DNA of 49,989 nucleotides from Bacteroidaceae bacterium (GTDB lineage Bacteria; Bacteroidota; Bacteroidia; Bacteroidales; Bacteroidaceae), in contig JAFXAR010000010.1 of assembly GCA_017516885.1 (NCBI GenBank), positions 1 to 49,989 of the forward strand. The letters run 5' to 3'. Positions 36,169 to 43,967 of the stretch are shown one piece after another (the first letter of the stretch is position 1; every line of letters starts with the position of its first letter). Under the pieces are notes generated by a model. It was not told the origin of the DNA. It made no database searches and saw only the letters and a list, made by a program, of their open reading frames with translations. The translations under genes were made by a program, and so were the position numbers.

Positions 36169-37074
36169 ATGAAAAAGTTGTTTTTGACCTTAATGTTTGC
36201 TGCTGCACTGCTCTCAAGTGCAAATGCCCAGTTGCTGTATAAGATTTCAGGAAAAGGCTTGGAAAAGCCTTCGTATATAGTTGGAACATATCATCTTGCT
36301 CCTGCAGCATTTGCCGATTCCATTCCCGGTGCAAATGATGCTGTTGCCTCAGTGGAGCAGGTTTGCGGCGAGGTTGACATGGCCGAAATGGAGTCCATGG
36401 CAGGTATGCAGAAGGTGATGAAAGCTATGATGCTCCCCGACGGCAAGTCTCTTGCTGATGTTCTCTCAAAAGAGGAGATGGATAAGCTGAATGCCTTTAT
36501 GCTTGAGGTTTTAGGTACCGACATGAACAATCCAATGGTGTCAATGCAGATGGGAAAAATGACACCTACAGCTATAAGCACTCAGTTGCAGCTGGTGCAG
36601 TTTATGAAAAAGACCCCGGGCTTTAATCCTGAGGCGATGATTGACAGTCATTTCCAGCAGGTGGCAAAGAAGAGCGGCAAACCGGTTATTGGATTTGAGA
36701 CACTTGATTTCCAGATTTCAGTGCTTTATACCGGAACGTCAATTGAACGTCAGAAAGAGCTGCTTGTATGCATGATTGACAATCAGGAATTCAACAACAA
36801 GGTGATGGATATGCTCACTGAAGCCTATTTTACACAGAACATGGAAAAGATTCTTGAAGTAAGCGAGATGAAGATGGGCAGCAGCTGTGACAGTTCGGCC
36901 GAGGAAGACGAAGCAATCCTTTACAAGCGCAACGCCGACTGGGTTGAAAAGATGCCTGCAATCATATCCGGCAAATCAACACTCTTTGTTGTTGGTGCGG
37001 CTCATCTCCCCGGCGAACGTGGAGTGCTTGAGATGCTCAAGAAAGAGGGTTACACTGTTGAGGGTGTTAAGTAA
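36169..37074 (+). CDS. TraB/GumN family protein
   Basis: 301 residues with a signal peptide (ending SSANAQ). The family metal-site elements are G-T-Y-H (YIVGTYHLAP), the acidic EVDMAEM segment, and the C-terminal FVVGAAHLPGERGV. The family (TIKI/TraB) includes predicted membrane or periplasmic metalloproteases, though bacterial GumN members are of unknown role. Length is normal. A terminator hairpin lies 20 bp after the stop. Confidence 0.88.
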   Translation: MKKLFLTLMFAAALLSSANAQLLYKISGKGLEKPSYIVGTYHLAPAAFADSIPGANDAVASVEQVCGEVDMAEMESMAGMQKVMKAMMLPDGKSLADVLSKEEMDKLNAFMLEVLGTDMNNPMVSMQMGKMTPTAISTQLQLVQFMKKTPGFNPEAMIDSHFQQVAKKSGKPVIGFETLDFQISVLYTGTSIERQKELLVCMIDNQEFNNKVMDMLTEAYFTQNMEKILEVSEMKMGSSCDSSAEEDEAILYKRNADWVEKMPAIISGKSTLFVVGAAHLPGERGVLEMLKKEGYTVEGVK

Positions 37075-37156: not shown

Positions 37157-38509
37157 ATGAAGAATTTCTTTCGTAAATTGCATCTGTGGTTATCTGTGCC
37201 GTTTGGCGTAGTAATTACCATAATATGCTTTACTGGTGCAATGATGGTTTTTGAAAGTGAGATAACCGCCTTTTGCATCAGCGACATAACCACTGTTGCT
37301 CCGGGAGAGAAGGCTCTTCCATTGGATAAGCTGGTGGAAAAGGTGAAGCCTTTTCTTGGCGAAGGGGTGAAGGTGGGCAGTGTAGCTGTCTCTTCGTCAC
37401 CTTCCAAGGCATATAAGGTAAACCTTTCAAAGCCTCATCGCGCAGCTGTTTATGTAAACCAGTATACAGGCGAGGTGCTGGGATACTATGAGCGTCTGCC
37501 TTTTTTTGATGTGATGCGCCGCATGCATCGCTGGCTTATGGATACCCGCCCCGGGGATGGCGGCATTTATTGGGGAAAGATGATTGTTGGGGTGAGCACT
37601 CTTGCTTTTGCGCTTATTCTTTTCACCGGTTTGATAGCATGGTGGCCGCGTAACAGAAAAATGCTCAAGAATCGTGTTCAAATTGTGGCAAGCAAGGGCG
37701 TGAACCGCTTCTGGCACGATTTGCATGTGGCCGGCGGCTTTTATGCTCTGCTTTTCCTGCTTGCAATGTCACTTACAGGCCTCACCTGGTTCTTTGGGCT
37801 TCAAAACAACAATTTTAAATTTGCTGGTACTGTAAATCATGTGCAGAACGATAACAAAATTGTTGCCGAAATGAATGGAGCACAAAAAACCGGAAGTTCA
37901 AGAGGGGAGTGCATTGGTGACTGTTCAAGTTGCGATGGCGTTCCTTGCGGCAAGAATCCTGCTCCGGTTCAGGCCGATGCTATTACGAGTGCAACATCTC
38001 AGGCTGATGCCACTACGGGCGCTACTGTGAACGCCGACGCTGTTACTGCAGCAACCGCTCAGGCCGATGCCTCAACAGGCGCTACAGTGGGCGCTGATGC
38101 TGTTACAGCGGCAACAGCCAAGTCTGCCCCGGCACAAAATGCCGATTATTCCAAATGGCAGCTTGCTCTTGATAAAGTAACTGCGTGTGTAAAGGATTAT
38201 TCTGAGATTACCGTTTCTGATGGCGCTGTAAGTGTTGCGCCGGATGGTATGGGCAACCAGCGTGCAATAGACATTTACAGATTTGACAAACAGACAGGTG
38301 ATATAATCTCGCCTTTGTTTTATGACGAAATGCCTTTAGACTTTAAGACTGCTGGCTGGATACGCACCCTGCATGTAGGGTCATGGGGTGGAGTGTTCTC
38401 AAAGGTGCTTTATTTCCTTGCAGCATTGCTTGGCGCTACGCTGCCTCTTACCGGTTATTATTTATGGATAAGGAGAATTTGTCTTAAGAAAAAGAATAAA
38501 AAGCAATAA
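37157..38509 (+). CDS. PepSY-associated TM protein with periplasmic cysteine cluster and flavinylation-like repeats
   Basis: 450 residues. Four membrane helices are predicted near residues 12-32, 141-162, 194-214 and 416-436. Conserved-type His residues flank them (RKLHLWLS, MHRWLM, FWHDLHVAGG, IRTLHVG), as in PepSY_TM proteins linked to heme-dependent or flavin-linked electron transfer and iron reduction. Positive residues at both ends place residues 215-415 in the periplasm. That loop carries C252-x3-C256-x2-C259-x4-C264, then five 10-residue units (272-321) that resemble ApbE flavinylation sites, then a PepSY-like region. The family usually has a plain PepSY domain in this loop. It may be a periplasmic electron-transfer module; its partner is unknown. 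A motif copy lies just before the start. Confidence 0.85.
   Translation: MKNFFRKLHLWLSVPFGVVITIICFTGAMMVFESEITAFCISDITTVAPGEKALPLDKLVEKVKPFLGEGVKVGSVAVSSSPSKAYKVNLSKPHRAAVYVNQYTGEVLGYYERLPFFDVMRRMHRWLMDTRPGDGGIYWGKMIVGVSTLAFALILFTGLIAWWPRNRKMLKNRVQIVASKGVNRFWHDLHVAGGFYALLFLLAMSLTGLTWFFGLQNNNFKFAGTVNHVQNDNKIVAEMNGAQKTGSSRGECIGDCSSCDGVPCGKNPAPVQADAITSATSQADATTGATVNADAVTAATAQADASTGATVGADAVTAATAKSAPAQNADYSKWQLALDKVTACVKDYSEITVSDGAVSVAPDGMGNQRAIDIYRFDKQTGDIISPLFYDEMPLDFKTAGWIRTLHVGSWGGVFSKVLYFLAALLGATLPLTGYYLWIRRICLKKKNKKQ
37970..38119 (+). repeat. Five tandem 30-bp coding units encoding flavinylation-like motifs
   Basis: The units read QADAITSATS, QADATTGATV, NADAVTAATA, QADASTGATV and GADAVTAATA. 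Units 2 and 4 fit the ApbE target pattern D-x-x-T/S-G-A-T. Unit 1 has S, and units 3 and 5 have A, at the G position. Units 3 and 5 encode the same nine residues (ADAVTAATA) yet differ at six of nine codons, all silently, so the protein motif is being kept while the DNA has drifted. There is no DNA-level identity of the sort left by recent slippage. Confidence 0.85.
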
Positions 38510-38512
38510 TCA

Positions 38513-38546
38513 TCATTCGGGGCAGCCTGTTGGCTGCCCCGAATGA
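38513..38546. terminator. Strong bidirectional terminator between convergent genes
   Basis: CATTCGGGGCAGCC (38514-38527) and GGCTGCCCCGAATG (38532-38545) pair perfectly around TGTT, and one outer T-A pair extends the stem to 15 bp. It lies 3 bp after the PepSY-TM stop and 7 bp before the end of the DUF4488 gene. Confidence 0.85.
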
Positions 38547-41564: not shown

Positions 41565-43967
41565 TTAAAATAATCCTCCAATGGTGTACACGGCAAATCC
41601 CGCAATCCATGCCACAGCCGTGTTGTAGACAATGGAGAAGAGTGCCCACTTGCGGCTGCCTGTTTCGCTTGCAATTGTTGCAATTGTTGCAATGCAAGGG
41701 AAGAAAAGCAGAATGAATACCATGAATGCAGTTGCCGAACGCGGTGTAAAGTCGCCCGAACTTCTGAGATTCTCCCTTATATCCTGTTCCGAATCGCTGC
41801 TGTAAAGTACGCCCAATGTGCTCACTACAAGTTCCTTTGCCGGAATGCTTGTGATAAGTGCGATGCTTGAGCGCCAGTTCTGCCCCAATGGCGCGAGTGC
41901 CGGCTCAACTGCATGTCCTATCATGGCAATGAACGAATTCTCGTTTATGCTCTCTCCGGTTTCAGACGCGTTCTGTTCAGTCTGCTGTTTCTCAAGGCCT
42001 TGCTCATCGGGGCGCGGGTAATAGCTCAAGAACCATATTACAATTGTTGAGAGCAGTATTATTGTACCTATCTTCTTTATGTACTGTGCGCATTTCTCCC
42101 ACATGTGGCGCATGGTTGCTCTCATAGTAGGCCAGCGGTAGGGCGGCAGCTCCATTACAAACGGAGTCTCGTCCTTTGGGAACTTGAACAGGCGCAACAG
42201 TCTTGCCGTGGCTATGGCTACTGCAATGCCAAGCAGATACAGCGCTATAAGTACCGTTGGAGCATGACTTGGGAAGAATGCCCCGGCAAAAAGTATCATT
42301 ACAGGCAGACGCGCGCTGCACGACATAAATGGGGTTACAATGATTGTTATAAGCCTGCTGCTGCGGCTTTCTATGGTGCGGGCTGCCATAATGGCCGGCA
42401 CGTTGCACCCGAAGCCCATGAGCATGGGAATGAACGATTTTCCATGCAGTCCCATTTTATGCATGAGCCTGTCCATTATAAATGCTGCGCGCGCCATGTA
42501 GCCCGAATCCTCCATAAGCGATATTATGAGGTAGAGTATAAGTATTTGGGGGATAAAAACGGCAACGCTTCCCACTCCTCCTATAATTCCGTTTATTACA
42601 AGGTCCTGCATTGCCCCTTCGGGTATAATGCCCGATGCCAGGCCGCCCAGCCAGCCGAACAGGTTTTCAATCCACTCCTGCGGGTATGCGCCAAGAAGGA
42701 ATACGGCGCTGAACATTGCCCACATTACAAAAATGAATATGGGAAATCCCAGCCATCTGTTTGCCACAAGACGGTCAATGCTGCGTGTTTTCTTCAGCGT
42801 GTCCTTGTTTCCGGGCTTGTAGGTCTCCTGCAATGCTCCGTTTATGAATCCGTATTTAGCGTCGCTTATGGCTGTTTCAATATCTATTCCCATCTGCAGC
42901 AGCACCGTCTTGCGCCCTTTTTCGGCAATATGCTGCCAGCGCGGCAGTCCCATTGTGTTTTTCAGCTGCAGGGTTGCCTCCTTGTCGCCCTCAAGCAATT
43001 TCAGTGCCCAATAGCGTACAGGGAACTGCTGTGGCAGGTCATCGGCCTTGTGCAGTTCGGCCGACAGAGGTTCAATCTGTTTCTCAATTATGCTGCCGTA
43101 GTTTATATGAATGTGGCGTATTGTGCTGTTCTTTCCCTCAAAAAGCTCTATGATTGTGTCAAGAAGCTTGTCAAGCCCCTTGCCGTTCTTTGCTACAGTG
43201 GGAATCATGGGCACTCCCATCATTCCTCCCAAGTGCTCGTAATCTATTACCGCACCGCTTGCAAGCAGCTCGTCGTACATGTTAAGTGCAACAACCGTGC
43301 GCAGGTTCATGTCAATGAGCTCCGTGGTGAGATAGAGATTGCGCTCCAGGTTCGATGCAACTACCGAATTTATGATTACGTCGGGGATTTTCTCAAAAAG
43401 ATGCCTGCGCACATATACCTCCTCGGGCGAATATGCGGCAATGGAATATGTTCCGGGAAGGTCGGTAAGGTTAATTCTGTAGCCTTTGTAGTTGAAACTT
43501 CCTGTTTTTGCGTCAATGGTTACTCCGCTGTAGTTGCCCACATGCTCGTTCTGGTTTGCGAGCGCATTGAATATTGAGGTTTTACCGCTGTTGGGGTTTC
43601 CCACAAGTGCTACATTTATCACGTTGTTGCGGCGGGTGGATATTTTCTTGAGCATGCAGCTTGTGCAGTTGCTGCCGCTGCATCCTTCGCATATCGACAG
43701 GCTGGTAAATGTTGGTGCAGGGCCAAGCTCCTTGCGTGCTTCCTCTTCGGGCAGCACTTCTATCATGGCAGCTTCACTGCGGCGCAAAAGCACGTCGTAA
43801 CCCATGACGTGGTACTTTACAGGGTCGTGCATTGGAGAGTCGAGTACCGATTTCACCTTTTCGCCCCTGATGAAGCCCATTTCCATTATGCGCTTGCGGA
43901 ATCCTCCGTGTCCCGACAGGCGTACAATGACTGCAGTTTCGCCGTTTTTAAGTTCAGATAGTTTCAT
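41565..43967 (-). CDS. feoB: FeoA-FeoB fusion, ferrous iron transporter
   Basis: 800 residues from the ATG at 43967. Residues 1-75 are FeoA (SH3-like: KLSELKNGETAVIVRLSG). A linker with C93-x2-C96-x4-C101-x2-C104 follows, then the GTPase with G1 GNPNSGKTS (123-131) and a membrane domain with two Gate regions (e.g. GFGCNVPAIMAARTIES). The longer frame from 43988 lies inside the -7 box, so the shorter start is right. FeoB moves Fe2+ inward. It is the first gene of an operon with the hemerythrin, the regulator and MsrC. FeoA-FeoB fusions are normal for this phylum. Confidence 0.95.
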   Translation of the reverse strand: MKLSELKNGETAVIVRLSGHGGFRKRIMEMGFIRGEKVKSVLDSPMHDPVKYHVMGYDVLLRRSEAAMIEVLPEEEARKELGPAPTFTSLSICEGCSGSNCTSCMLKKISTRRNNVINVALVGNPNSGKTSIFNALANQNEHVGNYSGVTIDAKTGSFNYKGYRINLTDLPGTYSIAAYSPEEVYVRRHLFEKIPDVIINSVVASNLERNLYLTTELIDMNLRTVVALNMYDELLASGAVIDYEHLGGMMGVPMIPTVAKNGKGLDKLLDTIIELFEGKNSTIRHIHINYGSIIEKQIEPLSAELHKADDLPQQFPVRYWALKLLEGDKEATLQLKNTMGLPRWQHIAEKGRKTVLLQMGIDIETAISDAKYGFINGALQETYKPGNKDTLKKTRSIDRLVANRWLGFPIFIFVMWAMFSAVFLLGAYPQEWIENLFGWLGGLASGIIPEGAMQDLVINGIIGGVGSVAVFIPQILILYLIISLMEDSGYMARAAFIMDRLMHKMGLHGKSFIPMLMGFGCNVPAIMAARTIESRSSRLITIIVTPFMSCSARLPVMILFAGAFFPSHAPTVLIALYLLGIAVAIATARLLRLFKFPKDETPFVMELPPYRWPTMRATMRHMWEKCAQYIKKIGTIILLSTIVIWFLSYYPRPDEQGLEKQQTEQNASETGESINENSFIAMIGHAVEPALAPLGQNWRSSIALITSIPAKELVVSTLGVLYSSDSEQDIRENLRSSGDFTPRSATAFMVFILLFFPCIATIATIASETGSRKWALFSIVYNTAVAWIAGFAVYTIGGLF

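Follow-up and report, generated by a model that had tools for sequence, protein, structure and literature searches.

The window, a stretch of 49,989 nucleotides, carries on its + strand a gene (37157..38509) for a 450-residue PepSY_TM inner-membrane protein that resembles the reductases XusC and FoxB and probably holds two hemes. The PepSY_TM assignment made in the initial annotation stood, as the domain was found in the product with E=6.4e-63 and 213.7 bits against a curated cut-off of 28.8. The gene lies directly 3' of a TraB/PrgY/GumN gene (36169..37074, + strand), identified by a domain match, and is separated from a convergent DUF4488 gene by a strong, terminator-like stem-loop of 15 pairs (38513-38546); scans for promoters and terminators gave counts not clearly over those of shuffles. 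Farther along, a perfect short 9-base repeat (TTGCAATTG, 2.8 copies) was seen at 41669-41693.

Hydrophobic segments of the protein were found near residues 5-41, 136-164, 188-216, and 407-438, with K/R-rich flanks at residues 165-179 and at the C-terminus, and from this hydropathy and charge pattern the loop between the third and fourth segments was assigned to the periplasmic side, which it probably faces. This loop holds an array of five motifs of the type recognised by the flavin transferase ApbE (37976..38116, + strand; residues 274-320, period 10 residues). Directly upstream of the array lies a feature absent from the initial annotation, the Cys motif CIGDCSSCDGVPC (C-x3-C-x2-C-x4-C; 37910..37948, + strand). 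A domain scan of the protein found no FMN_bind domain (PF04205).

A single-sequence search of the PDB with the protein gave no match, and a profile of 42 homologs (of 84 listed sequences) matched the FoxB structure 7abw_A with E=3e-14. Four candidate heme ligands, all encoded on the + strand, were invariant in the 42 rows: His9 (37181..37183) and His190 (37724..37726), which align with FoxB histidines, His124 (37526..37528), which does not, and His406 (38372..38374), whose alignment with a FoxB histidine falls in a weak second stretch. The PepSY_TM domain, the profile match to FoxB, and the invariant histidines are common ground with XusC (Bacteroides thetaiotaomicron BT_2063) and FoxB (PDB 7abw). 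Judged by sequence, the protein is a relative of these diheme siderophore reductases and would bind heme as they do. It differs from them in the motif array and Cys motif added to its periplasmic linker, and in belonging to a genome in which no DUF4374 gene was found.

Read in translation, the tandem repeats that had been annotated at 37970..38119 resolved into five exact 10-residue units over residues 272-321 (QADAITSATS, QADATTGATV, NADAVTAATA, QADASTGATV, and GADAVTAATA), with cores beginning at residues 274, 284, 294, 304, and 314 and a core consensus of D-A-x-T-[GSA]-A-T. Two of the five cores match the ApbE motif D-x-x-[ST]-G-A-[ST] exactly, namely the canonical unit 2 (DATTGAT, 38006..38026) and unit 4 (DASTGAT, 38066..38086), and these also fit the narrower pattern D-x-x-[ST]-G-A-T against which the initial annotation had called the other three near matches. 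Those three deviate at position 5 only, with S in unit 1 (DAITSAT, 37976..37996) and the A typical of RnfG in unit 3 (DAVTAAT, 38036..38056) and unit 5 (DAVTAAT, 38096..38116). The silent divergence reported between units 3 and 5 was likewise found, with six of nine codons differing silently around the same DAVTAAT core.

Tandem Repeats Finder described the array as 2.1 copies of a 60-base period (score 165), the top of its five rows in the window. Shuffling the loop residues over 20,000 rounds produced a mean of 0.02 and a maximum of 2 motifs, against the 5 observed. A degenerate DNA pattern matched 15 places across the genome, of which five were the array and one of the other ten was the motif of NqrC; as its reversed control matched 8 places, an isolated match is about as frequent as chance would give, and the clustering alone is distinctive. 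The 21-base unit cores were on average 68% alike, which rules out that the array of this protein arose by recent slippage and persisted by chance. Cores in the relatives L003, L010, and L029 were 84-90% alike, and a younger duplication is possible there.

Across 44 genomes of the genus, 27 have one or two PepSY_TM proteins, and all 29 of these proteins were read. Most of the genomes used are drafts. The pattern D-x-x-[ST]-[GSA]-A-T occurred at 54 sites in 16 of the 29 proteins (15 genomes), with one to five sites per protein and two or more in 15 of the 16, L013 having a single full unit; the other 13 proteins had none. Shuffled loops of the genus proteins gave a mean of 0.37 and a maximum of 3 motifs. 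Outside the genus, 54 PepSY_TM homologs belonging to other genera of the family were read and none contained the motif, four of them having short loops (L051, L066, L080, and L081); these homologs came from 52 of 96 matching genomes, chosen for the most part among the top-ranked ones. The Cys motif was found in 7 of the 16 array proteins, none of the 13 genus proteins lacking an array, and none of the 54 outside homologs. It may bind a metal, hold an Fe-S cluster, or form disulphides.

A tree of all 29 genus proteins and 10 of the 54 outside proteins, from which the variable loop was left out, placed all 16 array proteins in one clade of 19, with a support of 94/94 that is slightly below the star mark of 95/80. 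The three clade members without the motif formed one subclade (97/94), and L022, which is motif-less inside the array clade, retains the remnant SAVSGAT. Searches farther afield, with a 53-residue array query among 393 genomes of the order and a 50-residue idealised array query among 395 genomes of the phylum, each returned only the genome of the window. The 50-residue query recovers 7 of the 15 known array genomes of the genus and misses the other 8, as short or widely spaced arrays escape it, so that absence elsewhere in the order and phylum is just partly tested.

The spacing from core to core was 10 residues in 24 cases, 9 in 6, 13 in 2, and 23-26 in 6, which marks the 7-residue core as the conserved unit, a length that ApbE recognises according to the review PMC12052999. 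The acceptor at position 7 was T in 54 of 54 units even though S had been permitted there, while position 4 was divided between T (33) and S (21). Among 74 pairs of units within proteins, the acceptor codon differed silently in 50 and never in the residue encoded. A Thr-only acceptor with silent changes agrees with the preference of ApbE for T over S described in the same review. The counts at D1 and A6 were predetermined by the search pattern, and the loops were hence scanned with seeds that leave these positions free, in 15 of the 16 array loops (L011 omitted). Seeds of [ST][GSA]A (n=55) had D three residues earlier in 50 cases and T next in 50, and seeds of D..[ST][GSA] (n=54) were followed by AT in 50, in loops composed of 8% D and 11% T. 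The search of homologs for the repeat that had been suggested from the sequence thus showed copy number (1-5) and spacing varying while D, A, and the final T are kept, within one clade.

Position 5 is where the arrays depart from the canonical motif. Across the 54 units it was G in only 25, A in 19, and S in 10, and L014, L015, and L017 had no G unit at all; this deviation is the main weakness of reading the arrays as flavinylation sites. Among 30 FMN_bind loci of the order (L176-L205, the high-scoring ones from a longer list), A stood at position 5 in 23 and G in one, six being unreadable by the pattern. The 23 comprised 18 D-x-I-[TS]-A-A-T, 4 DAITAST, and 1 QAITAAT; FMN_bind loci of this order thus mostly carry DAITAAT or DAITAST and not the textbook SGAT. 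The three A-type loci scanned against NCBIfam (L176, L184, and L195) scored above the cut-off for RnfG, and the G-type locus is NqrC. As A is common at this position in FMN_bind proteins of the order, AAT units are plausible ApbE sites, whereas S had no precedent among the FMN_bind loci sampled. The proposal that both variants are modified therefore gained support for AAT and none for SAT. According to the review PMC12052999, a G-to-A change in one ApbE target leaves ~50% flavinylation and a D-to-A change has little effect; another paper, contrary to that review, terms the Asp essential.

The apbE gene sought by the initial annotation is present in one copy (PF02424, 292 bits). Its product has an N-terminal hydrophobic segment and also matches the NCBIfam ApbE type, below the cut-off. 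It is not colocalised with the array gene in this draft genome, lying on contig C26 and the array on C68. ApbE was found in 37 of the 44 genus genomes and in 13 of the 15 that bear arrays; none was found in the array-bearing drafts G006 and G024, which are about 67% and 86% complete. FMN_bind proteins were likewise found in 37 of 44 genomes, with one match each and two in one genome, and the sole match in the genome of the window is an NqrC with the motif DAISGAT. ApbE is so widespread, and Nqr needs it, that its presence is a weak discriminator and counts as evidence for a necessary condition only; Nqr alone accounts for the copy here.

TonB-receptor-like and DUF4374-like genes preceded the PepSY gene in 8 of the 14 neighbourhoods fetched for the 29 genus genes, with Pfam checks at L101 (receptor and DUF4374) and L108 (DUF4374). 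This order of TonB receptor, DUF4374, and PepSY is the XusABC arrangement known from Bacteroides, in which XusC is termed an iron-siderophore reductase (PMC13142918), so relatives of the window gene have XusA/XusB-like neighbours as in the XusC system. DUF4374, which is XusB-like, adjoins a PepSY gene in all 17 genomes that have it. It adjoins 6 of the 16 array genes (L003, L010, L014, L015, L017, and L029), with a TonB receptor also present at 5 of the 5 surroundings fetched among these six, while the other 10, including the window gene, have no adjacent XusB-like gene. DUF4374 was not found in the genome of the window (87% complete), and the XusABC neighbourhood is absent from the locus. In L101, L108, and L109, the genes for TraB, TonB receptor, DUF4374, and PepSY stand in sequence, which makes loss of the receptor and DUF4374 genes between TraB and PepSY the likely history here. 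A different neighbour occurs 3' of the PepSY gene in L103, L104, and L105, in one subclade: a protein of 1404-1422 residues, whose L103 version (L103:2748-6959) carries DUF5112/DUF5113 and a histidine-kinase ATPase domain, followed by a response regulator.

Taken together, I consider it probable that the gene encodes a diheme PepSY_TM reductase whose periplasmic linker became a multi-site ApbE substrate, giving an FMN tether that would relay electrons from heme. Membrane-anchored ApbE would use FAD to attach FMN to the final Thr in several of the five D-x-x-T-[G/A/S]-A-T units, leaving the flavins on the flexible tether that joins TM3 to the second PepSY domain. There they could accept electrons from the periplasmic heme and hand them either to a partner protein or to a soluble acceptor, for which ferric iron or ferri-siderophores are the likeliest candidates; with multiple sites, flavin would be locally more concentrated and could reach farther, and electrons might also be exchanged from FMN to FMN. 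The suggestion that the repeats are ApbE targets is backed by the conserved core, by the one genomic ApbE, and by the report in PMC12052999 that ApbE needs no more than a 7-residue tag, with no folded domain around it, but not for the SAT unit, which lacks precedent. By analogy with such tags, the motif could also work without a folded FMN-binding domain, as had been supposed. Also in favour of the proposed tether, another paper saw no in vitro modification of a motif that lay within a folded domain. Against it, the same review states that terminal tags are flavinylated better than those in surface loops, and the protein offers no FMN_bind domain in which a flavin could be held.

The initial annotation had proposed that the array would be a periplasmic electron wire. 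It is likelier to act as a tethered Fe(III) reductant or a flexible relay, since the PepSY_TM module belongs with the XusC/FoxB siderophore reductases and since the irregular spacing in several relatives favours independent tethers. A domain-free redox polymer falls somewhat short of an even chance: here a natural tandem array of bare ApbE motifs in a disordered loop, with the Cys4 site beside it, would give a transmembrane diheme cytochrome up to five covalent FMNs, and one polypeptide would move electrons from membrane hemes along a flexible flavin string to extracytosolic acceptors.

The closest alternative is a variant of this explanation and overlaps with it in probability: the loop is flavinylated and no hopping occurs, the FMNs acting as independent swinging reductants, or one docking on a PepSY domain near the heme with the rest as spares. 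Copy numbers down to the single unit of L013 and the irregular spacing speak for it, while the window protein, L003, L004, L014, L015, and L017 have their units at regular intervals of 10 residues, which would let neighbouring flavins touch, and it comes close to being an even call. Somewhat less probable is that the tether passes electrons to something other than iron, the reductase having taken on a new periplasmic task after XusA/XusB were lost; this too is compatible with flavinylation and overlaps in probability. Of 12 PepSY genes that lack an adjacent DUF4374, 10 carry arrays, against 6 of 17 that have one (Fisher p=0.02, ignoring kinship), and since the genome of the window has no XusB-like gene, an iron role here would be carried over from relatives. 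Against this, the six array genes that adjoin DUF4374 show that arrays also occur in the XusB-like setting.

That the array is an Ala/Thr-rich disordered spacer resembling an ApbE target by coincidence is unlikely. The homolog loops are indeed variable low-complexity linkers and position 5 deviates in half of the units, but the 54 sites far exceed the shuffled mean, D, A, and T are kept despite silent codon change and irregular spacing, and the motif is missing from every homolog read outside the genus; shuffles, seed tests, and outgroup homologs together speak against chance or low complexity as the origin of the arrays. Retention for another modification or for binding, such as Bacteroidota O-glycosylation at D-[ST]-[AILMVT], would suit a Thr-rich periplasmic loop in an apparent Bacteroidota genome and the 1-3 such triplets upstream of the array in the loops of 8 of the 16 array proteins, but is very improbable, the glycosylation motif being ruled out for the arrays by its absence from all 16, with none anywhere in the window protein.

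The proposed FMN tether has partial counterparts among known flavinylated proteins. Multi-flavinylated proteins such as SaFMN3 and CbFMN4, as presented in Meheust 2021, likewise carry several covalent FMNs, predicted or shown, on one extracytosolic protein, but with a folded FMN_bind domain for each FMN, where the window protein has bare 7-residue motifs in a PepSY_TM protein. DUF3570, described there with two flavinylated motifs, is likewise outside the FMN_bind family; its two sites lie in a domain of ~420 residues, its gene is beside apbE, and no tandem array in a linker is described for it. In that source's PepSY-like clusters with DUF2271, a PepSY reductase is also tied to ApbE chemistry, with the flavin on a separate protein encoded nearby and not, as proposed here, on the PepSY protein itself. 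FMN_red proteins (mSystems 2024, PMC11334425) likewise have the motif on a flexible segment outside FMN_bind and are reported there to be flavinylated; they differ in bearing one or two motifs on an unstructured C-terminal extension next to a known flavin pocket, mainly in Firmicutes. The Flavin-tag (Tong 2021, as cited in the review PMC12052999) shares the sufficiency of a seven-residue motif for ApbE, but is an engineered single tag where the array would be a natural tandem one.

No report of a bare-motif tandem array in a PepSY loop was found in passages of PMC8238504, PMC11334425, PMC12052999, PMC10722498, PMC13142918, PMC10434189, PMC12424826, and PMC10339131, a scope that leaves most subscription literature outside. 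Published flavinylation surveys, as described in these sources, screen the surroundings of apbE for FMN_bind and a small number of other domains, so short-motif flavin carriers in linkers far from apbE would escape them. The array may be a novel means of equipping a single protein with several electron carriers. If real, it would mean that multi-flavin proteins can be built without folded flavin domains and grafted onto a heme reductase; it would also offer a testable model for how PepSY/XusC reductases reach bulky ferri-siderophores and a compact natural scaffold for multi-flavin tags.

The NqrC of the genome (L041:775-1725, contig C57) has an N-terminal rubredoxin-like segment (NCBIfam, under cut-offs) and a Cys-rich C-terminal tail, and similar heads occur in the other NqrC-like proteins of the genus that were compared. 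The genus has 38 FMN_bind matches, and in the 30 of them that were tabulated (L115-L144) the first residue of the NqrC-like motif was D in 12 of 14 array-bearing genomes. It was N, as in NAISGAT and similar forms, in 8 of 8 genomes whose PepSY proteins lack arrays and in 7 of 8 without PepSY proteins, a split that may reflect kinship or a shifted preference of ApbE.
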